Below, in pieces: positions 4,517 to 11,991 of a stretch of DNA of 64,000 nt. The translations under genes and the position numbers were made by a program. The first letter of the stretch is position 1, and each line of letters starts with the position of its first letter. Under the pieces are notes generated by a model. The model saw only the letters and a list, made by a program, of their open reading frames with translations. It did no database searches and was not told where the DNA came from. This stretch comes from Desulfotignum sp. (GTDB lineage Bacteria; Desulfobacterota; Desulfobacteria; Desulfobacterales; Desulfobacteraceae): positions 224,839 through 288,838 of the forward strand of contig JAABSA010000001.1 of NCBI GenBank assembly GCA_011390635.1, given 5' to 3'.

Positions 4517-5692
4517 ATGGCTCTCTGTGTAACCCTCGGACTTGAAAACCTGAAACAGCATCCCCTGTCTGCCTTACAGGGAGCTCGGCTGGGACTGCTT
4601 GCCAACCCTGCATCCGTTGATTCAAAATTTACCCATGCACTGCGGGTGCTCCAGGATTTGTTTCCAGGACAGCTGCGTGCAATTTTTTCTCCCCAGCATG
4701 GTTTTTATGCGGAAAAACAGGACAATATGATTGAATCACACCATACCATGGAACCTGATTTGAACATTCCCATCTACAGTCTCTACAGCCATTCCCGGGT
4801 ACCTGTCCCACAGATGTTTGCAGACATCGATACCCTGGTGGTGGATATCCAGGATGTGGGCACCCGGGTGTACACTTTTATATATACCATCTCTTTTTGT
4901 ATGGAACTGGCTGCACAGATGAACAAAAAAGTGGTTGTACTTGACCGGCCCAATCCCATCGGCGGCTGCCAGGTGGAAGGCAACGTCCTGCAGCAGCAGG
5001 CAGCTTCTTTTGTGGGTAGATTTCCCATCCCCATGCGCCACGGTATGACTGTGGGGGAAATTTGTCAGTTTTTCAACACAGAATTTCATCTGGGGTGTAA
5101 TCTGACCATTGTCCCCATGACCGGCTGGAAGCGCAGCATGTACTGGCAGGATACCGGCCTGGCATGGATTCCCCCGTCTCCCAATCTACCCACCCCGCAT
5201 TCATGCATGGTGTACCCGGGCCAGGTGATTTTTGAGGGGACGAATATCAGTGAGGGGCGGGGAACCACCCTCCCTTTTGAATTATTCGGGGCCCCGTTTA
5301 TGGACACCGCCCAAATGGCACCGAAGCTGAACCAGGCGATTTCAGGGGCCTGGTTCCGGCCGGTGTGTTTTCAGCCCACATCCGGCAAATGGCAGGACCA
5401 GGTCTGCAAAGGGTTCCACATTCATGTGACGGACAAAGAGGTTTTCACTCCCTATACCGCATCGCTGACGGCGCTGCAGATGATTATCAGACATCACCCG
5501 GATGCATTTGCTTTCAAGCAGCCGCCCTATGAATATGAGTATGAGCGGCTGCCCATGGATCTGATACTCGGAGACCAAAATATACGTAACCGCCTTGCTG
5601 CCTTAGAAGACATAAAGACCTTGAAAGCGTTTTGGCAACCGGGGCTATCTGCATTTAAAGCCATTGCAAGCACCTATTATCTCTATGACTGA
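4517..5692 (+). CDS. DUF1343 protein, NamZ-like exo-beta-N-acetylmuramidase
   Basis: The whole 391-residue protein matches the DUF1343 (YbbC/NamZ) family. Visible landmarks include GLLANPASVDS, FSPQHGFY, VVDIQDVGTRVYTFIYT, VVLDRPNPIGG, RHGMTVGEI and FEGTNISEGRGTTLPFELFG. Characterised members release MurNAc from the non-reducing end of peptidoglycan fragments. Many homologues are exported, but I see no signal peptide here, so the protein is probably cytoplasmic and acts on imported muropeptides. GGAG sits seven bases before the ATG. It is divergent from hisC across 125 bases. The function is inferred by family; it fits the MurU-AmgK and Mpl genes in this window. Confidence 0.82.
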   Translation: MALCVTLGLENLKQHPLSALQGARLGLLANPASVDSKFTHALRVLQDLFPGQLRAIFSPQHGFYAEKQDNMIESHHTMEPDLNIPIYSLYSHSRVPVPQMFADIDTLVVDIQDVGTRVYTFIYTISFCMELAAQMNKKVVVLDRPNPIGGCQVEGNVLQQQAASFVGRFPIPMRHGMTVGEICQFFNTEFHLGCNLTIVPMTGWKRSMYWQDTGLAWIPPSPNLPTPHSCMVYPGQVIFEGTNISEGRGTTLPFELFGAPFMDTAQMAPKLNQAISGAWFRPVCFQPTSGKWQDQVCKGFHIHVTDKEVFTPYTASLTALQMIIRHHPDAFAFKQPPYEYEYERLPMDLILGDQNIRNRLAALEDIKTLKAFWQPGLSAFKAIASTYYLYD

Positions 5693-5777: not shown

Positions 5778-6038
5778 TTATTTGTTTTTTTTCAGATCGT
5801 TGAGTTCTTTTTCAAGTTCGGCAATCCGTGATTGCTCATCAGCTGGTGCGTCTTTGCCTTCCTTGTTTTTCCAGGAATCCTTGAGTTCATCAAAGCCAAG
5901 GTAAAGTGCAAGCCCGCCACCTAAAAGCAATACAGGGGGGATAACCCCGGCCAGAAGATTCAAAAATTCACCAAACCACACTGCCAGTCCTACAACACCG
6001 AGAAGAACAGCAATAGCACCACCGATTAATGTTTTCAT
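5778..6038 (-). CDS. Small membrane protein with a coiled-coil tail
   Basis: 86 residues. The first 50 form two hydrophobic helices (IGGAIAVLLGVVGLAVWFGEFL and a Pro/Gly-rich VIPPVLLLGGGLALYLG). They are followed by a charged linker and a short heptad-like segment, RIAELEKELNDLKKNK. AAGGAGGA sits upstream of the ATG and a strong terminator follows, so this is a real monocistronic gene. I do not recognise a characterised family. The layout resembles small inner-membrane proteins that self-associate through the C-terminal coiled coil. Confidence 0.75.
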   Translation of the reverse strand: MKTLIGGAIAVLLGVVGLAVWFGEFLNLLAGVIPPVLLLGGGLALYLGFDELKDSWKNKEGKDAPADEQSRIAELEKELNDLKKNK

Positions 6039-6276: not shown

Positions 6277-8922
6277 ATGAACCTGTTTGCGTCGCTCAAA
6301 ACCCTTGTTCCCAGAACCAGGGAAAGGATTCGCACCACCATTGACTGCCTGCTGGGGGGTACCCATGATTACTTCACCAACCTTTATCCGGGCAACCAAA
6401 GCTATATCGCCAGAAAGGTCCTTAACCAACTCATTAAAAAACTTACCCTTGATGACCATAACCTGGAAAAATTACACGCGCTGGACAAAAGTGACTATAT
6501 TGTTTTTGTGAGCAAAAACAAACGGCTTTTTGATTTTTTATATTTCCATACCCGGCTCAAGGAGCTTGATCTGCCATATCCGGAACTGGGATTTGACCTG
6601 CGGTTCTTTTTTCTTTTGCCCATCAAACGCCTGTGCAGGATATGGCTGTCTCATCTGGACTATTTTTTTCATCATTTTTCTTTCAAGGATTTTTATGCTT
6701 CCGGATATGCGGAACGTGAAATTTTTGCGGGAAAATCCGGATTTGTCTGTCTGATCGAAGAAGATGATTTTTACAACCGGTTCATCAAAGCCTCACCCGA
6801 TCCATTGTTTCATCTGATTGAATTTCAAAAACGCGTGGAAAAACCCGTTATCATAGTGCCTGAAGATATCATCTATGTCACCAAACCCATGCACAAAAAT
6901 CCTGGACTCGGGGACATTCTCTTTGGTACCCATGCAAAACCCGGATTTATCAAGCGGGTGAACATACTGATGCGTCATCCGGAAAAAATCCGGGTGGAGA
7001 TTGCAAGGCCGGTGAATCTTAAAGAATTCATATCACGCCCTGAGATCAATTGTCTTGATTCAGAATTTCAGACCCACCGCCTGAGAAGCCATCTGGTGGA
7101 TATTTTGAACCGCCAGCGTAAAAGCATTACCGGCCCTGTGCTCAAATCCCGCCAGGAGATCACCGAAGATATTCTGACCCGAAAATCTTTGCGCGAATTT
7201 CTGGCTGATTATGCAGCAAGAAACAATATCTCTTTAAAAAAAACAAACAAAAAAGCAGCCGCCTATATCAATGAAATTGCGGCAAACTATAACCTGCGGG
7301 TTATCAACTTCGGCAACTGGATGCTCACCTGGATATTTAAAAATATTTTTGAAGGGCTGATGGTCAACCAGAAGGAGATCAACCGGATGCGGGAAAAATA
7401 TACCGAAGCCCCCCTGATTCTGGTGCCCTGTCACAAAAGCCATCTGGATTATCTGCTTTTGCCCTATGTCATGTTCAGAAACAACATGCCCTGCCCCCAT
7501 ATTGCAGCCGGCAAAAACCTGTCTTTCTGGCCTTTGGGGCCCCTGTTCAGAGGAGGCGGTGCATTTTTTCTGCGCCGGACATTTCAAGGCGCGGAATTAT
7601 ATGCCAAAATATTTGCTGCCTACCTGGAAAAACTGCTCTATGAAGGGTTTAATATCAAAATTTTCATTGAAGGCGGCAGAAGCAGGACGGGTAAACTTCT
7701 GACACCCCGCCCGGGCGGTATGGCCATGATCATCAATGCATACCTGAACGGTGCCTGTGACAACCTGTATTTTGTGCCCATTTTTGTTGGGTATGACCGG
7801 GTTCTGGAAGAAGACGCATATCTCAAGGAAATTGAAGGAGGTAAAAAAGATCCTGAAACACTCAAGGGCCTTATCAGCACCCGAAAATTTTTAAAAAAAA
7901 AATACGGTAAGGTTTATATCCGGTTTGATGAGCCCATTTCCATCAAAGCATACATCCGGCAAAAAAACATAAACCTGTCAAGGGCCACAGCCCCGGAATA
8001 TATGGATTTTGTCAAAGGCTTCAGCTACAGATTAATGGCTGCCATCAACAAAAAAGGGGTGGCCACTCCCCACGGTATCATTGCCAGCGCCATTCTCAAC
8101 AGCCCGAACAATAATTTTGCCAAAGGCGGGATGATCGAGCAGGCCAATACCTATTTAAACATACTGATGGCCCATAACGTGGAATTATCTGAAACCCTGC
8201 TGCTGGATCTGGATAATACATTCAACACCGTCATCAATTCCTTTTTATCCAGAAACTTCATTGAACTGGCAGATGAAGATGAAGAAGAGATAACAGATGA
8301 GACCTATTTTATTGTCAAGCACAATAAACGGCCCATTCTGGACTACTATAAAAACTCGGTGATTTCTTTTTTTGTGCCCTCCGCCTTTACAGCTGTTGCT
8401 ATTTTGGAAGTGGACCGGTTTAATTTCGCCCTGTTTGATCTGGTCCAAAGATACCGGTTTTTACAAAAAATATTTCAGGACGAATTTTTCTGTGACCAGG
8501 AAATCACCTGTGAAGAGCATATTTCCGCGTGCATAAAAGGATTTATCAATGAAGGCATCCTGGTGCCGGACAACACCCGACAGGACATGTTGAACCTGAC
8601 CTCCAGGGGGTTGCGCAAACTCAAATGGTTTGCCTCCTTTATGCTGCCGTTCTTTGAATCCTATGAAACCGCGCTGCTGTATTTTGAAAAAGAAAAGAAA
8701 AGTCCCCCCGATGAAAAGGAACGGGCCAAAAAAATCCATTCCTATGGCATCCGTTTATACAAGCGCAAGCAGATCCGTCGGAAAGAGTCTTTATCGCTGA
8801 TCAACTTTCGAAATGCTGCCAGATTTTTTGTAAAAAACGGCATCAACGGCGCTGAGGACCAGATCCAGATTGATTATTACAAACAGATCATCAACCGCCT
8901 GTCCCGGCTGATCATTTCCTGA
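6277..8922 (+). CDS. plsB: Glycerol-3-phosphate acyltransferase
   Basis: Transfers an acyl chain to sn-glycerol-3-phosphate at the inner membrane, the first step of phospholipid synthesis. The 881-residue length is close to the PlsB class (E. coli 807). The acyltransferase core lies at about 370-560: VPCHKSHLDYLLLPY (HX4D catalytic motif), GGGAFFLRRTF, FIEGGRSRTGK and FVPIFVGYDRVLEE, the four standard blocks. The N-terminal 300 residues and the C-terminal 300 are the helical regions typical of PlsB rather than of short PlsC enzymes. AAGGG lies seven bases before the ATG. It leads a plus-strand run; the next gene begins seven bases after its stop. Confidence 0.93.
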   Translation: MNLFASLKTLVPRTRERIRTTIDCLLGGTHDYFTNLYPGNQSYIARKVLNQLIKKLTLDDHNLEKLHALDKSDYIVFVSKNKRLFDFLYFHTRLKELDLPYPELGFDLRFFFLLPIKRLCRIWLSHLDYFFHHFSFKDFYASGYAEREIFAGKSGFVCLIEEDDFYNRFIKASPDPLFHLIEFQKRVEKPVIIVPEDIIYVTKPMHKNPGLGDILFGTHAKPGFIKRVNILMRHPEKIRVEIARPVNLKEFISRPEINCLDSEFQTHRLRSHLVDILNRQRKSITGPVLKSRQEITEDILTRKSLREFLADYAARNNISLKKTNKKAAAYINEIAANYNLRVINFGNWMLTWIFKNIFEGLMVNQKEINRMREKYTEAPLILVPCHKSHLDYLLLPYVMFRNNMPCPHIAAGKNLSFWPLGPLFRGGGAFFLRRTFQGAELYAKIFAAYLEKLLYEGFNIKIFIEGGRSRTGKLLTPRPGGMAMIINAYLNGACDNLYFVPIFVGYDRVLEEDAYLKEIEGGKKDPETLKGLISTRKFLKKKYGKVYIRFDEPISIKAYIRQKNINLSRATAPEYMDFVKGFSYRLMAAINKKGVATPHGIIASAILNSPNNNFAKGGMIEQANTYLNILMAHNVELSETLLLDLDNTFNTVINSFLSRNFIELADEDEEEITDETYFIVKHNKRPILDYYKNSVISFFVPSAFTAVAILEVDRFNFALFDLVQRYRFLQKIFQDEFFCDQEITCEEHISACIKGFINEGILVPDNTRQDMLNLTSRGLRKLKWFASFMLPFFESYETALLYFEKEKKSPPDEKERAKKIHSYGIRLYKRKQIRRKESLSLINFRNAARFFVKNGINGAEDQIQIDYYKQIINRLSRLIIS

Positions 8923-8929
8923 AAACCCC

Positions 8930-10612
8930 ATGAAAGCACTGATACTGGCCGCAGGATTCGGCACACGGCTTTTGCCCCATACAAAAACCATTGCCAAACC
9001 CCTTTTTACTTTGGGAGGTATCCCCATATTAGCACATACCATCCAATATCTTATCGGTTTCGGATGCCGGCAGATCATGGTCAACACCCATTATCTGCCG
9101 GACCAGATTGCCGATTTTATAGAAACCGGCAAAGAACAATTTGATGCACAGATTACCTGTATCCACGAGCCAATGATCCTGGATACAGGGGGCGCGATTG
9201 CCAATGTGAAAGATGCCATGGCAGGAAATCCTTTTTTTGTCATCAATGGTGACGTGGTAACCAATGTTGATCTGGCAGAGGTGTGGCGTTGTCATTTACG
9301 TAACCGCGCACTTGCCACACTGGTGCTCCATGACAGAAAAGAGTTCAACAAGGTGGCACTGGATGCCGGCAGCTGGATAACCGATTTCAACAGCCCCGGC
9401 AAAGGACTGGCATTCACCGGTATCCAGGTACTGTCCCCGCAGATTTTTGATTACATGCCACCTGAAAAGGTTTTTTCCAGTATTGATCTGTTTGCGGAAC
9501 TTTGCAAAAACCGGCAGATCAAAGCCTATGTGGGTACCGATATTTTCTGGGAAGATATCGGCACACCGGAGGCGTATGCCCGTGTTGCCCGGCAATGGAC
9601 CTGCGCAGCTGCCTTGAAAACAGATATTCAGGATACCGAAATTTTTGCAATGGCCGGTGACGGATCGGACCGGAACTGGTTCAGGGCAATACCCTGTAAC
9701 AGATCCCCATCCAGTTCCTTCAAACGGCCCGGATCAGTTGTCCTTTGTGACCATGGCATTTGTCTGCCCGGCAGTGAGGCCCGCGCCCAGCTGGAGGCGT
9801 TTGTACATATTGGAAACCATTTGTCCAGACAGGGGATACCAGTACCCCGCATACTGGCCCATGATCCTTTGGCCGGCATGGTGGCACTGGAAGATCTGGG
9901 CAATACCCATCTGGTTGACCAGGTTAACAATACCTGCGATGAATCAACCATAAAACAGATGTACAAAAAGGTCATCAACCAGTTGATACTGTTCTCCCAA
10001 AAAGGTGCACACGGGTTTGACCCGGCATGGACATACCAGACCCCCACCTATTCAAAGGGCCTTATTCTGGAAAAAGAGTGCCGGTATTTTATGGATGCGT
10101 TTATGAACAACTATCTGAAAAAAAACCTTTCCTTTGAAACGTTTGAAGATGAATTTTGTTTTGTGGCACAAAAAGCCCTGGACGGTGGTTTTACAGGGCT
10201 CATGCACCGGGATTGCCAGTCAAAAAACATCATGGTTAAAAATACAACCGTTTATTTTATTGATTTTCAATCCGCCAGAACAGGGCCTTTTCAGTATGAT
10301 CTGGCTTCCCTTTTACTGGATCCCTATGTTACACTGCCCAAGCAGGTGCAACAAGATCTGGTATCCTATGCCATGGACCGTCTTGGCCTTGACGTTGAAG
10401 CTCAAAGACAACGGTTTGCCCAATGTTTTCATTTCTGCTCCCTGACCCGGAACCTGCAGATACTCGGGGCATTTGCCCACCTGAGCCGTGTGAAGAAAAA
10501 AACAGGGTTTGAACAACATATCCCTGCGGCAGTGGCATCGTTGAAACAGCTGATTCAGAATATGGATACATCCCCTGTTCCGATATTAACAAAACTGATA
10601 CTGTCCCTGTAA
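8930..10612 (+). CDS. MurU-AmgK type fusion: sugar-1-phosphate uridylyltransferase plus amino-sugar kinase
   Basis: Two domains in one chain. Residues 1-230 are a nucleotidyltransferase: LILAAGFGTRLLPHT, then AKPLFTLGGIPILAH, DTGGAIANV, VINGDVVTN and DIFWEDIGTPEAYA, as in MurU. Residues 240-560 are an aminoglycoside-phosphotransferase fold with LMHRDCQSKNIMV (catalytic Asp), VYFIDFQSARTGP and YDLASLLLDPYV, the pattern of AmgK. In Pseudomonas these are separate proteins that phosphorylate MurNAc at C1 and then form UDP-MurNAc, bypassing fosfomycin-sensitive steps. The fusion order here is MurU then AmgK. It sits between plsB and dapB. A different sugar substrate (for example GlcNAc) cannot be excluded. 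Confidence 0.8.
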   Translation: MKALILAAGFGTRLLPHTKTIAKPLFTLGGIPILAHTIQYLIGFGCRQIMVNTHYLPDQIADFIETGKEQFDAQITCIHEPMILDTGGAIANVKDAMAGNPFFVINGDVVTNVDLAEVWRCHLRNRALATLVLHDRKEFNKVALDAGSWITDFNSPGKGLAFTGIQVLSPQIFDYMPPEKVFSSIDLFAELCKNRQIKAYVGTDIFWEDIGTPEAYARVARQWTCAAALKTDIQDTEIFAMAGDGSDRNWFRAIPCNRSPSSSFKRPGSVVLCDHGICLPGSEARAQLEAFVHIGNHLSRQGIPVPRILAHDPLAGMVALEDLGNTHLVDQVNNTCDESTIKQMYKKVINQLILFSQKGAHGFDPAWTYQTPTYSKGLILEKECRYFMDAFMNNYLKKNLSFETFEDEFCFVAQKALDGGFTGLMHRDCQSKNIMVKNTTVYFIDFQSARTGPFQYDLASLLLDPYVTLPKQVQQDLVSYAMDRLGLDVEAQRQRFAQCFHFCSLTRNLQILGAFAHLSRVKKKTGFEQHIPAAVASLKQLIQNMDTSPVPILTKLILSL

Positions 10613-10621
10613 GGAAACGCC

Positions 10622-11455
10622 ATGGAAAAGATATATGTGATGATCAACGGACTTCCGGGAAATGTGGCTTCCACCATGGCCCGGGCGGCCCTTGCCGACG
10701 ACCGTTTTGAACTGATTCCCTTTTCATTGACCGGCCCGCAGATTTCGCAAAATACCATACAGATCGAAACTGTTTCTATCAGCCTTGTGAAACCGGACAC
10801 CCGGGATATCATCATTGCAGATATCCAAAAAAGGGTTGGTCGATTCATTGCCGTTGATTACACCCATCCCACTGCTGTCAATACCAATGCCAGATTCTAT
10901 ACCCGTCATGATATCCCTTTTGTCATGGGTACCACAGGCGGTGATCGGCAGGCGCTTGAAGCGTGTGTGTCCCGGGCCCGATTTCCGGCTGTCATCGCCC
11001 CGAACATGGCCAAACAGATTGTGGGATTCCAGGCCATGATGGCCTTTGCCGCTGACAGTTTTCCCGGCCTCTTTGCAGGATACACACTTGAAATTAAAGA
11101 AAGCCACCAGCAGAGCAAGGCTGACACCTCTGGCACCGCCAGGGCCATGGTAGGATATTTCAACCGGCTGGGGGTTGCCTTTGATCCGGCCCAAATCCAG
11201 CAGATCCGCGATCCAAAGGTTCAGAAAACCCAGTGGCAGATACCCCAAGAACATCTGTCCGGTCATGGCTGGCACACTTACACCCTTGCAGCTCCGGATG
11301 GATCAGCCGTGTTTGAATTCACACACAATGTCAACGGACGAAAAATATATGTGGCCGGCACCTTTGATGCGGTATTATTTTTGCAAAAACAACTTCAAAA
11401 CACCAACAATCCTAAACGATTGTTTACCATGATTGATGTGTTGCACAAGGGGTGA
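10622..11455 (+). CDS. dapB: 4-hydroxy-tetrahydrodipicolinate reductase, plant/cyanobacterial-like type
   Basis: Reduces hydroxy-tetrahydrodipicolinate on the lysine/diaminopimelate route. The N-terminal Rossmann part has VMINGLPGNVASTMA. The middle holds YTHPTAVNTNARFY and FVMGTTGG. The catalytic segment is IKESHQQSKADTSGTA (about 160-175), matching the DapB2 form of plants and cyanobacteria more than E. coli DapB (RHHRHK). It is 277 residues. AAGGA is six bases before the ATG. It supplies meso-DAP for peptidoglycan, consistent with the recycling enzyme just upstream. Its last bases overlap the next ORF's possible GTG. Confidence 0.88.
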   Translation: MEKIYVMINGLPGNVASTMARAALADDRFELIPFSLTGPQISQNTIQIETVSISLVKPDTRDIIIADIQKRVGRFIAVDYTHPTAVNTNARFYTRHDIPFVMGTTGGDRQALEACVSRARFPAVIAPNMAKQIVGFQAMMAFAADSFPGLFAGYTLEIKESHQQSKADTSGTARAMVGYFNRLGVAFDPAQIQQIRDPKVQKTQWQIPQEHLSGHGWHTYTLAAPDGSAVFEFTHNVNGRKIYVAGTFDAVLFLQKQLQNTNNPKRLFTMIDVLHKG

Positions 11456-11463
11456 AATTTTTC

Positions 11464-11991
11464 ATGGGTACGCTTTTTAACATCATTCTTGTGCTTCTGG
11501 GTCTGGCCTACCTGATCTCCCCGGTGGACATCATCCCGGAAATTCTGGTTCCGTTTCTGGGATGGGTGGATGACGGGCTGGTTTTATACTGCATCTATTA
11601 TTTGATCCGGCATGGGCAGCTTCCCTGGTTCTTTTTCAAACGAAGTACGGGTGCGGGTTATGACCGGGAACCTACCGGCCATAACCGATCCACAACCGGT
11701 TTTCAGACAAAAAATAATGGCTCTGGCCAGAAATCTGGTACCAAAACAAACAGATCCGAACCCGGGCCAAACGGTTCATATTCCCGGTCCACAAGACCTG
11801 CCCATGAAATTCTGGGCGTACCGATGGATGCCTCCTGGGAGGAGATCCAGGCTGCCTATAAACAGCAGATCAAAAAATATCATCCAGATAAGCTGTCCCA
11901 CCTGGGAAAAGAATTTTCAGATCTGGCCTCCAAGCGCTTTTTAGAAATCCAGAACGCTTTTGAAGCCCTTAAAGCTCGAAACGGCCGGTAA
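11464..11991 (+). CDS. DUF1232 membrane domain fused to a C-terminal J domain
   Basis: Residues 1-50 are a YkvA/DUF1232-like membrane segment: YLISPVDIIPEILVPFLGWVDDGLVL carries the family's SPVDxIPD-like core. A Ser/Asn/Gly-rich linker of about 60 residues follows. The last 65 residues form a J domain, AHEILGVPMDASWEEIQAAY then KYHPDKL with the intact HPD tripeptide that stimulates Hsp70. I prefer the ATG at 11464 over the GTG at 11452, which overlaps the dapB stop and has no spaced ribosome site. It is probably a membrane-tethered DnaK co-chaperone; its client is unknown. No Gly/Phe or zinc region is present, so it is a type III J protein. Confidence 0.82.
   Translation: MGTLFNIILVLLGLAYLISPVDIIPEILVPFLGWVDDGLVLYCIYYLIRHGQLPWFFFKRSTGAGYDREPTGHNRSTTGFQTKNNGSGQKSGTKTNRSEPGPNGSYSRSTRPAHEILGVPMDASWEEIQAAYKQQIKKYHPDKLSHLGKEFSDLASKRFLEIQNAFEALKARNGR

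Follow-up and report, generated by a model that had tools for sequence, protein, structure and literature searches.

A predicted MurU-AmgK fusion protein of Desulfobacterales and its probable role in MurNAc salvage

A single open reading frame in the window (the whole stretch of 64,000 nucleotides that was analysed) encodes a MurU-type nucleotidyltransferase joined to an AmgK-type kinase, and its product is probably a bifunctional enzyme that salvages MurNAc to UDP-MurNAc. On comparative grounds, we regard the fusion as a known pathway in a new and well-supported arrangement. A search of the open-access literature, incomplete in its coverage, found no description of a MurU-AmgK fusion.

Domain architecture and conservation

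The fused frame (positions 8930–10612, + strand, stop codon included) starts with ATG, is intact and encodes 560 amino acids. The earlier note had read it as MurU followed by AmgK in one polypeptide, and had proposed a domain scan and a structure prediction as checks. This order was borne out by Pfam, NCBIfam and the domain trees. Pfam placed an NTP_transferase domain at residues 2–222 (1.2e-24) and an APH domain at residues 280–466 (3.9e-17), and NCBIfam models of both MurU and AmgK were matched. The predicted structure of the fusion (pLDDT 93.9, pTM 0.90) resembled Pseudomonas putida MurU (4Y7T; target-normalised TM 0.89, rmsd 2.1 Å) as well as the AmgK-like structure 3CSV (TM 0.72), and the domain arrangement in this model is confident.

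The MurU-type nucleotidyltransferase domain comprises residues 1–226 (positions 8930–9607), and all features described in this paragraph lie on the + strand. It contains the NTP-binding signature LAAGFGTR at residues 6–13 (8945–8968), Asn52, which aligns with the UTP residue of P. putida MurU (9083–9085), and two predicted metal ligands, Asp108 (9251–9253) and Asp209 (9554–9556). The AmgK-type anomeric sugar kinase domain covers residues about 237–560 (9638–10609). Its APH catalytic residues (HRD...N and DFQ) are intact, with the catalytic loop HRDCQSKN at residues 426–433 (10205–10228) and the DFQ metal motif at residues 445–447 (10262–10270), the Gln447 of which is common to the AmgK references. 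Across 34 aligned fusions, the nucleotidyltransferase signature (G9, G11 and R13), Asp108, Asp209, the H, R, D, Q, S and N of the kinase motif HRDxQSxN, and D445/Q447 were all invariant; Asp108 was also invariant in all rows of the reference alignment.

Matches to the fusion, mostly spanning both halves of the query, were present in 57 of 59 relatives, and because of this recurrence the fusion is not an assembly artefact. It is carried by nearly all sampled Desulfobacterales, and the MurU and AmgK equivalog models matched all 14 of the 14 members tested. In within-genus comparisons, dN was well below dS in both halves (about one quarter to one third of dS or less in most pairs). Judged by its sequence, the fusion is a maintained protein rather than a chance run-on. 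The best 80 loci in the scan of named genomes all came from Desulfobacterales or from genomes labelled no more closely than Deltaproteobacteria or Proteobacteria, bar one contig binned as Sphingobacteriia. That contig (L031) is identical to the window across the match, and the bin is probably misnamed or mixed.

Family assignment of the two halves

For the nucleotidyltransferase half, the MurU model NF045761 was the top match among 15 NCBIfam models with 127.4 bits, followed by man1P_GTase (106.8 bits) and HddC (87.6 bits). The cut-off of NF045761, 250 bits, was missed by the domain as well as by the whole protein (123.9 bits), and it was also missed by the Legionella (237.9 bits) and Bacteroides (134.3 bits) homologues. 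When a profile of this half was compared with the PDB, the UDP-glucose, GDP-mannose and heptose transferases scored above MurU, and because of this ranking overall similarity alone is not decisive between MurU and the mannose-1-phosphate or heptose-1-phosphate transferases. The domain ends near residue 226 with the kinase directly after it, a minimal fold without a C-terminal beta-helix tail, as in MurU.

A single residue was more informative about the nucleotide. In P. putida MurU, UTP is reported to be held by Asn52, and the GTP-using HddC has Ser at this position (PMC6981941). In our alignment, Asn was present in 15 of 15 fused rows, in 31 of 31 rows from other Desulfobacterota and in all MurU references, and it was absent from the other nucleotidyltransferases of that set, including the GDP-mannose enzyme (Ala) and HddC (Ser). 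Since the UTP-glucose enzyme 8X7S appears to carry a counterpart of Asn52 too, the residue predicts UTP and not the sugar.

The kinase half matched two AmgK models and no other model in NCBIfam, and in the PDB search 3CSV was the sole significant match (7.7e-17, the next being 0.12). The NCBIfam cut-offs were again missed, with 90.7 bits against 550 for NF045759 and 61.4 against 500 for NF045698; the Legionella (263.1 bits) and Bacteroides (63.9 bits) homologues likewise missed that of NF045759. By these comparisons, the kinase half is specifically closest to AmgK-type proteins.

The earlier note had held that a phylogeny placing the domains with sugar kinases or mannose-1-phosphate transferases of unrelated pathways would speak against its reading. 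Such trees were run for both domains, and the halves fell among homologues of MurU and AmgK, which does not refute the reading. All sampled fusion kinases of Desulfobacterales formed a single clade (support 99) in the kinase tree. This clade lay within the stand-alone AmgK homologues of Desulfobacterota, and the closest group outside these was the AmgK of Bacteroidota. In the nucleotidyltransferase tree, the fusion halves also formed one clade (99), nested among the separate MurU homologues of the phylum, with the exception of one fused Desulfobacterales locus, L149. This locus stood apart from the other fusions here and grouped with them in the kinase tree, a placement that is uncertain given the long branches. 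By these trees, the fusion belongs with MurU and AmgK in the broad families, and since it scores below the cut-offs it is not filed under the NCBI equivalogs of either.

Three further AmgK homologues were observed in the course of the analysis. At L132 (G036 C24), a second, stand-alone AmgK homologue with 255 bits to NF045698 occurs in a genome that also has the fusion; it groups with alphaproteobacterial-type AmgK and is more canonical than the fusion kinase. A Sinorhizobium homologue (L155:832-2346) is annotated TsaE and looks like a TsaE-AmgK fusion. In a Bacteroides homologue (L111:2932-4362), the kinase is followed by a RapZ C-terminal domain, which accounts for the annotation of this protein as 'RNase adapter RapZ'.

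Genomic neighbourhood and origin of the fusion

The placement of the fusion between plsB and dapB given in the earlier note was confirmed, with same-strand flanks: plsB (6277–8922, +) lies directly upstream with a gap of 7 bp, and a plant-type dapB (TIGR02130; 10622–11455, +) directly downstream with a gap of 9 bp. The spacing and shared strand suggest co-transcription, and a scan for consensus promoters and terminators gave matches at chance level only. The case for co-expression with envelope genes drawn from plsB and dapB is weaker than the link to namZ, a gene at 4517–5692 (+) that the earlier note had missed. It encodes an exo-beta-N-acetylmuramidase homologue (PF07075, 4.5e-82; PF20732, 2.5e-48) and is the predicted supplier of MurNAc.

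NamZ was found in 52 of 59 relatives. Both genes occur in 51 genomes, and in 40 of these namZ was located 4–13 kb from the fusion; linkage was counted within 15 kb, and several of the exceptions were fragmented assemblies. One gene order recurs in Desulfobacterales, in which namZ is followed by a small ORF on the reverse strand, then by plsB, the fusion and dapB. The small ORF (5778–6038, - strand, between namZ and plsB) encodes 86 amino acids with a hydrophobic N-terminal half, is conserved throughout Desulfobacterales and had no Pfam match. Synteny is also kept for a protein with DUF1232 and DnaJ domains encoded 3' of dapB (11452–11991, +).

Outside the order, namZ adjoins the murU-amgK genes at four loci (L115, L116, L117 and L118) and lies near them at a fifth (L134), and the NamZ family is also present in the Bacteroides control genome. 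Among 247 Desulfobacterota genomes, a MurU/AmgK match was found in 130 of 137 with NamZ versus 60 of 110 without it, a comparison that ignores shared descent and in which weak matches may be unrelated nucleotidyltransferases. Inspection of the NamZ N-termini by eye revealed no evident signal peptide. In G207, G247, G137, G115 and others, the NamZ domain lies within open frames of about 680–870 amino acids, which suggests NamZ fusions, with read-through as a possible cause.

Searches for other recycling genes returned AnmK in 0 of 39 genomes, with positive controls, and MurQ over its cut-off in 0 of 39 genomes. AmpG (26 of 31 genomes), a GH3 hydrolase (28 of 31) and MurA (27 of 31) were found over their cut-offs. 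The linkage to NamZ, together with the lack of AnmK and MurQ in these searches, points to free MurNAc as the predicted substrate.

Elsewhere in Desulfobacterota, MurU and AmgK are mostly encoded by separate neighbours in the gene order of the fusion, and in many cases the two frames overlap or are parted by one in-frame stop. Most of the separate nucleotidyltransferases in Desulfobacterota carry a tail of 63–95 amino acids, ManC-like, which matched left-handed beta-helices in those scanned and is missing from the fusion. Frames of about 650–700 amino acids in other classes were considered as fusions and rejected, being mostly two ORFs with in-frame stops between them, which the homologue search reads through. 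Of the loci that were read, L117 and L123 alone were fused outside the order. In L124, of the same family as L123, one stop separates the two halves, from which fusion appears to have occurred more than once. The Desulfobacterales fusion would have arisen from a neighbouring murU-amgK pair, with the kinase in place of the beta-helix tail of the nucleotidyltransferase. Desulfobacterota hold unlinked, adjacent, abutting and fused states, and would offer a clear case of gene fusion by stop loss.

Proposed function and comparison with known systems

In the proposed mechanism, the C-terminal kinase would phosphorylate free MurNAc with ATP at the anomeric carbon to MurNAc-alpha-1-phosphate, and the N-terminal domain would convert this intermediate with UTP to UDP-MurNAc and pyrophosphate, so that the recycled sugar would rejoin peptidoglycan synthesis after MurA/MurB. 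Free MurNAc would be supplied by the nearby-encoded, probably cytosolic NamZ and not by the AnmK-MupP route of Pseudomonas. We infer the substrate, the nucleoside triphosphate, the role of NamZ as source and the order of evolutionary events. More tentatively, and with somewhat less than even confidence, we propose that Desulfobacterales have a distinct route free of AnmK and MurQ, in which cytosolic NamZ releases MurNAc, the fused enzyme converts it to UDP-MurNAc, and MurNAc-1-phosphate is possibly handed between fixed active sites. Against MurNAc salvage stand the missed equivalog cut-offs, the PDB profile ranking, the ManC-like tail in relatives and the more canonical second AmgK in G036. 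Two further points count against the salvage reading: a cytosolic NamZ would have to meet substrate that ends in MurNAc, and anhydro-MurNAc would need some other fate if AnmK is absent.

The fusion might instead mainly salvage GlcNAc, which cell-wall breakdown also supplies, with the kinase forming GlcNAc-1-phosphate and the transferase UDP-GlcNAc. Characterised AmgK accepts both MurNAc and GlcNAc (PMC5411481), as the name of the NCBIfam model also indicates, and Asn52 is silent on the sugar. However, the top NCBIfam model of the nucleotidyltransferase half is MurU, the gene with conserved linkage to the fusion encodes a muramidase, and the search gave no MurQ to route MurNAc toward GlcNAc; we consider a mainly GlcNAc-directed role unlikely. 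Slightly less likely still is a role in a different envelope pathway, with a sugar kinase that just looks like AmgK and an NDP-sugar synthase of the mannose, heptose or glucose type. The PDB profile scores favouring UDP-glucose and GDP-mannose transferases and the ManC-like tail on separate homologues would fit such a pathway, but Asn52 is invariant, in contrast to Ala in the GDP-mannose enzyme and Ser in HddC, all significant matches of the kinase are to AmgK-type proteins, and the linkage to NamZ also speaks against it. A LicC-LicA-like fusion activating choline or an amino-alcohol, a type that exists in Treponema and likewise has the nucleotidyltransferase before the APH kinase, is highly improbable, and this identity was rejected: LicC (1JYK) matched weakly (4.8e-5; 60.7 bits across a short N-terminal stretch in the profile search) and LicA was not among the PDB matches of the kinase half.

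If MurNAc salvage by the fusion is correct, recycling that bypasses MurA would reach sulfate reducers through a NamZ-fed branch. The fusion would then be a one-gene enzyme from MurNAc to UDP-MurNAc that an order of anaerobes has kept, and would also suit peptidoglycan labelling with MurNAc probes in laboratory strains as a single-gene tool; Tannerella AmgK and MurU expressed in E. coli have served as a positive control for such labelling (PMC13041923).

The closest functional comparison is with AmgK and MurU of the Pseudomonas AnmK-MupP-AmgK-MurU pathway, which share enzyme families, catalytic motifs and predicted reactions with the fusion. In Pseudomonas the two are separate proteins, whereas Desulfobacterales have the two families joined in one chain, with no AnmK found and with namZ nearby, and the fusion sequence falls far below the MurU and AmgK equivalog cut-offs. 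The gammaproteobacterial pairs (L113, L114) have the order amgK-murU, in contrast to MurU then AmgK in the fusion. GlmU is likewise bifunctional, a single chain catalysing two successive steps to a UDP-amino sugar, as proposed here, but its second activity is an acetyltransferase and not a kinase, and it acts in de novo synthesis, not salvage. AmgK of Bacteroidota, which the kinase tree placed closest to the AmgK homologues of Desulfobacterota among outside groups, is a protein separate from MurU and, unlike the fusion, bears a RapZ C-terminal domain. The separate murU-amgK genes of other Desulfobacterota are unfused, and most of their nucleotidyltransferases have the 63–95 amino acid tail, but they share the order and strand of the fusion and some lie beside namZ.
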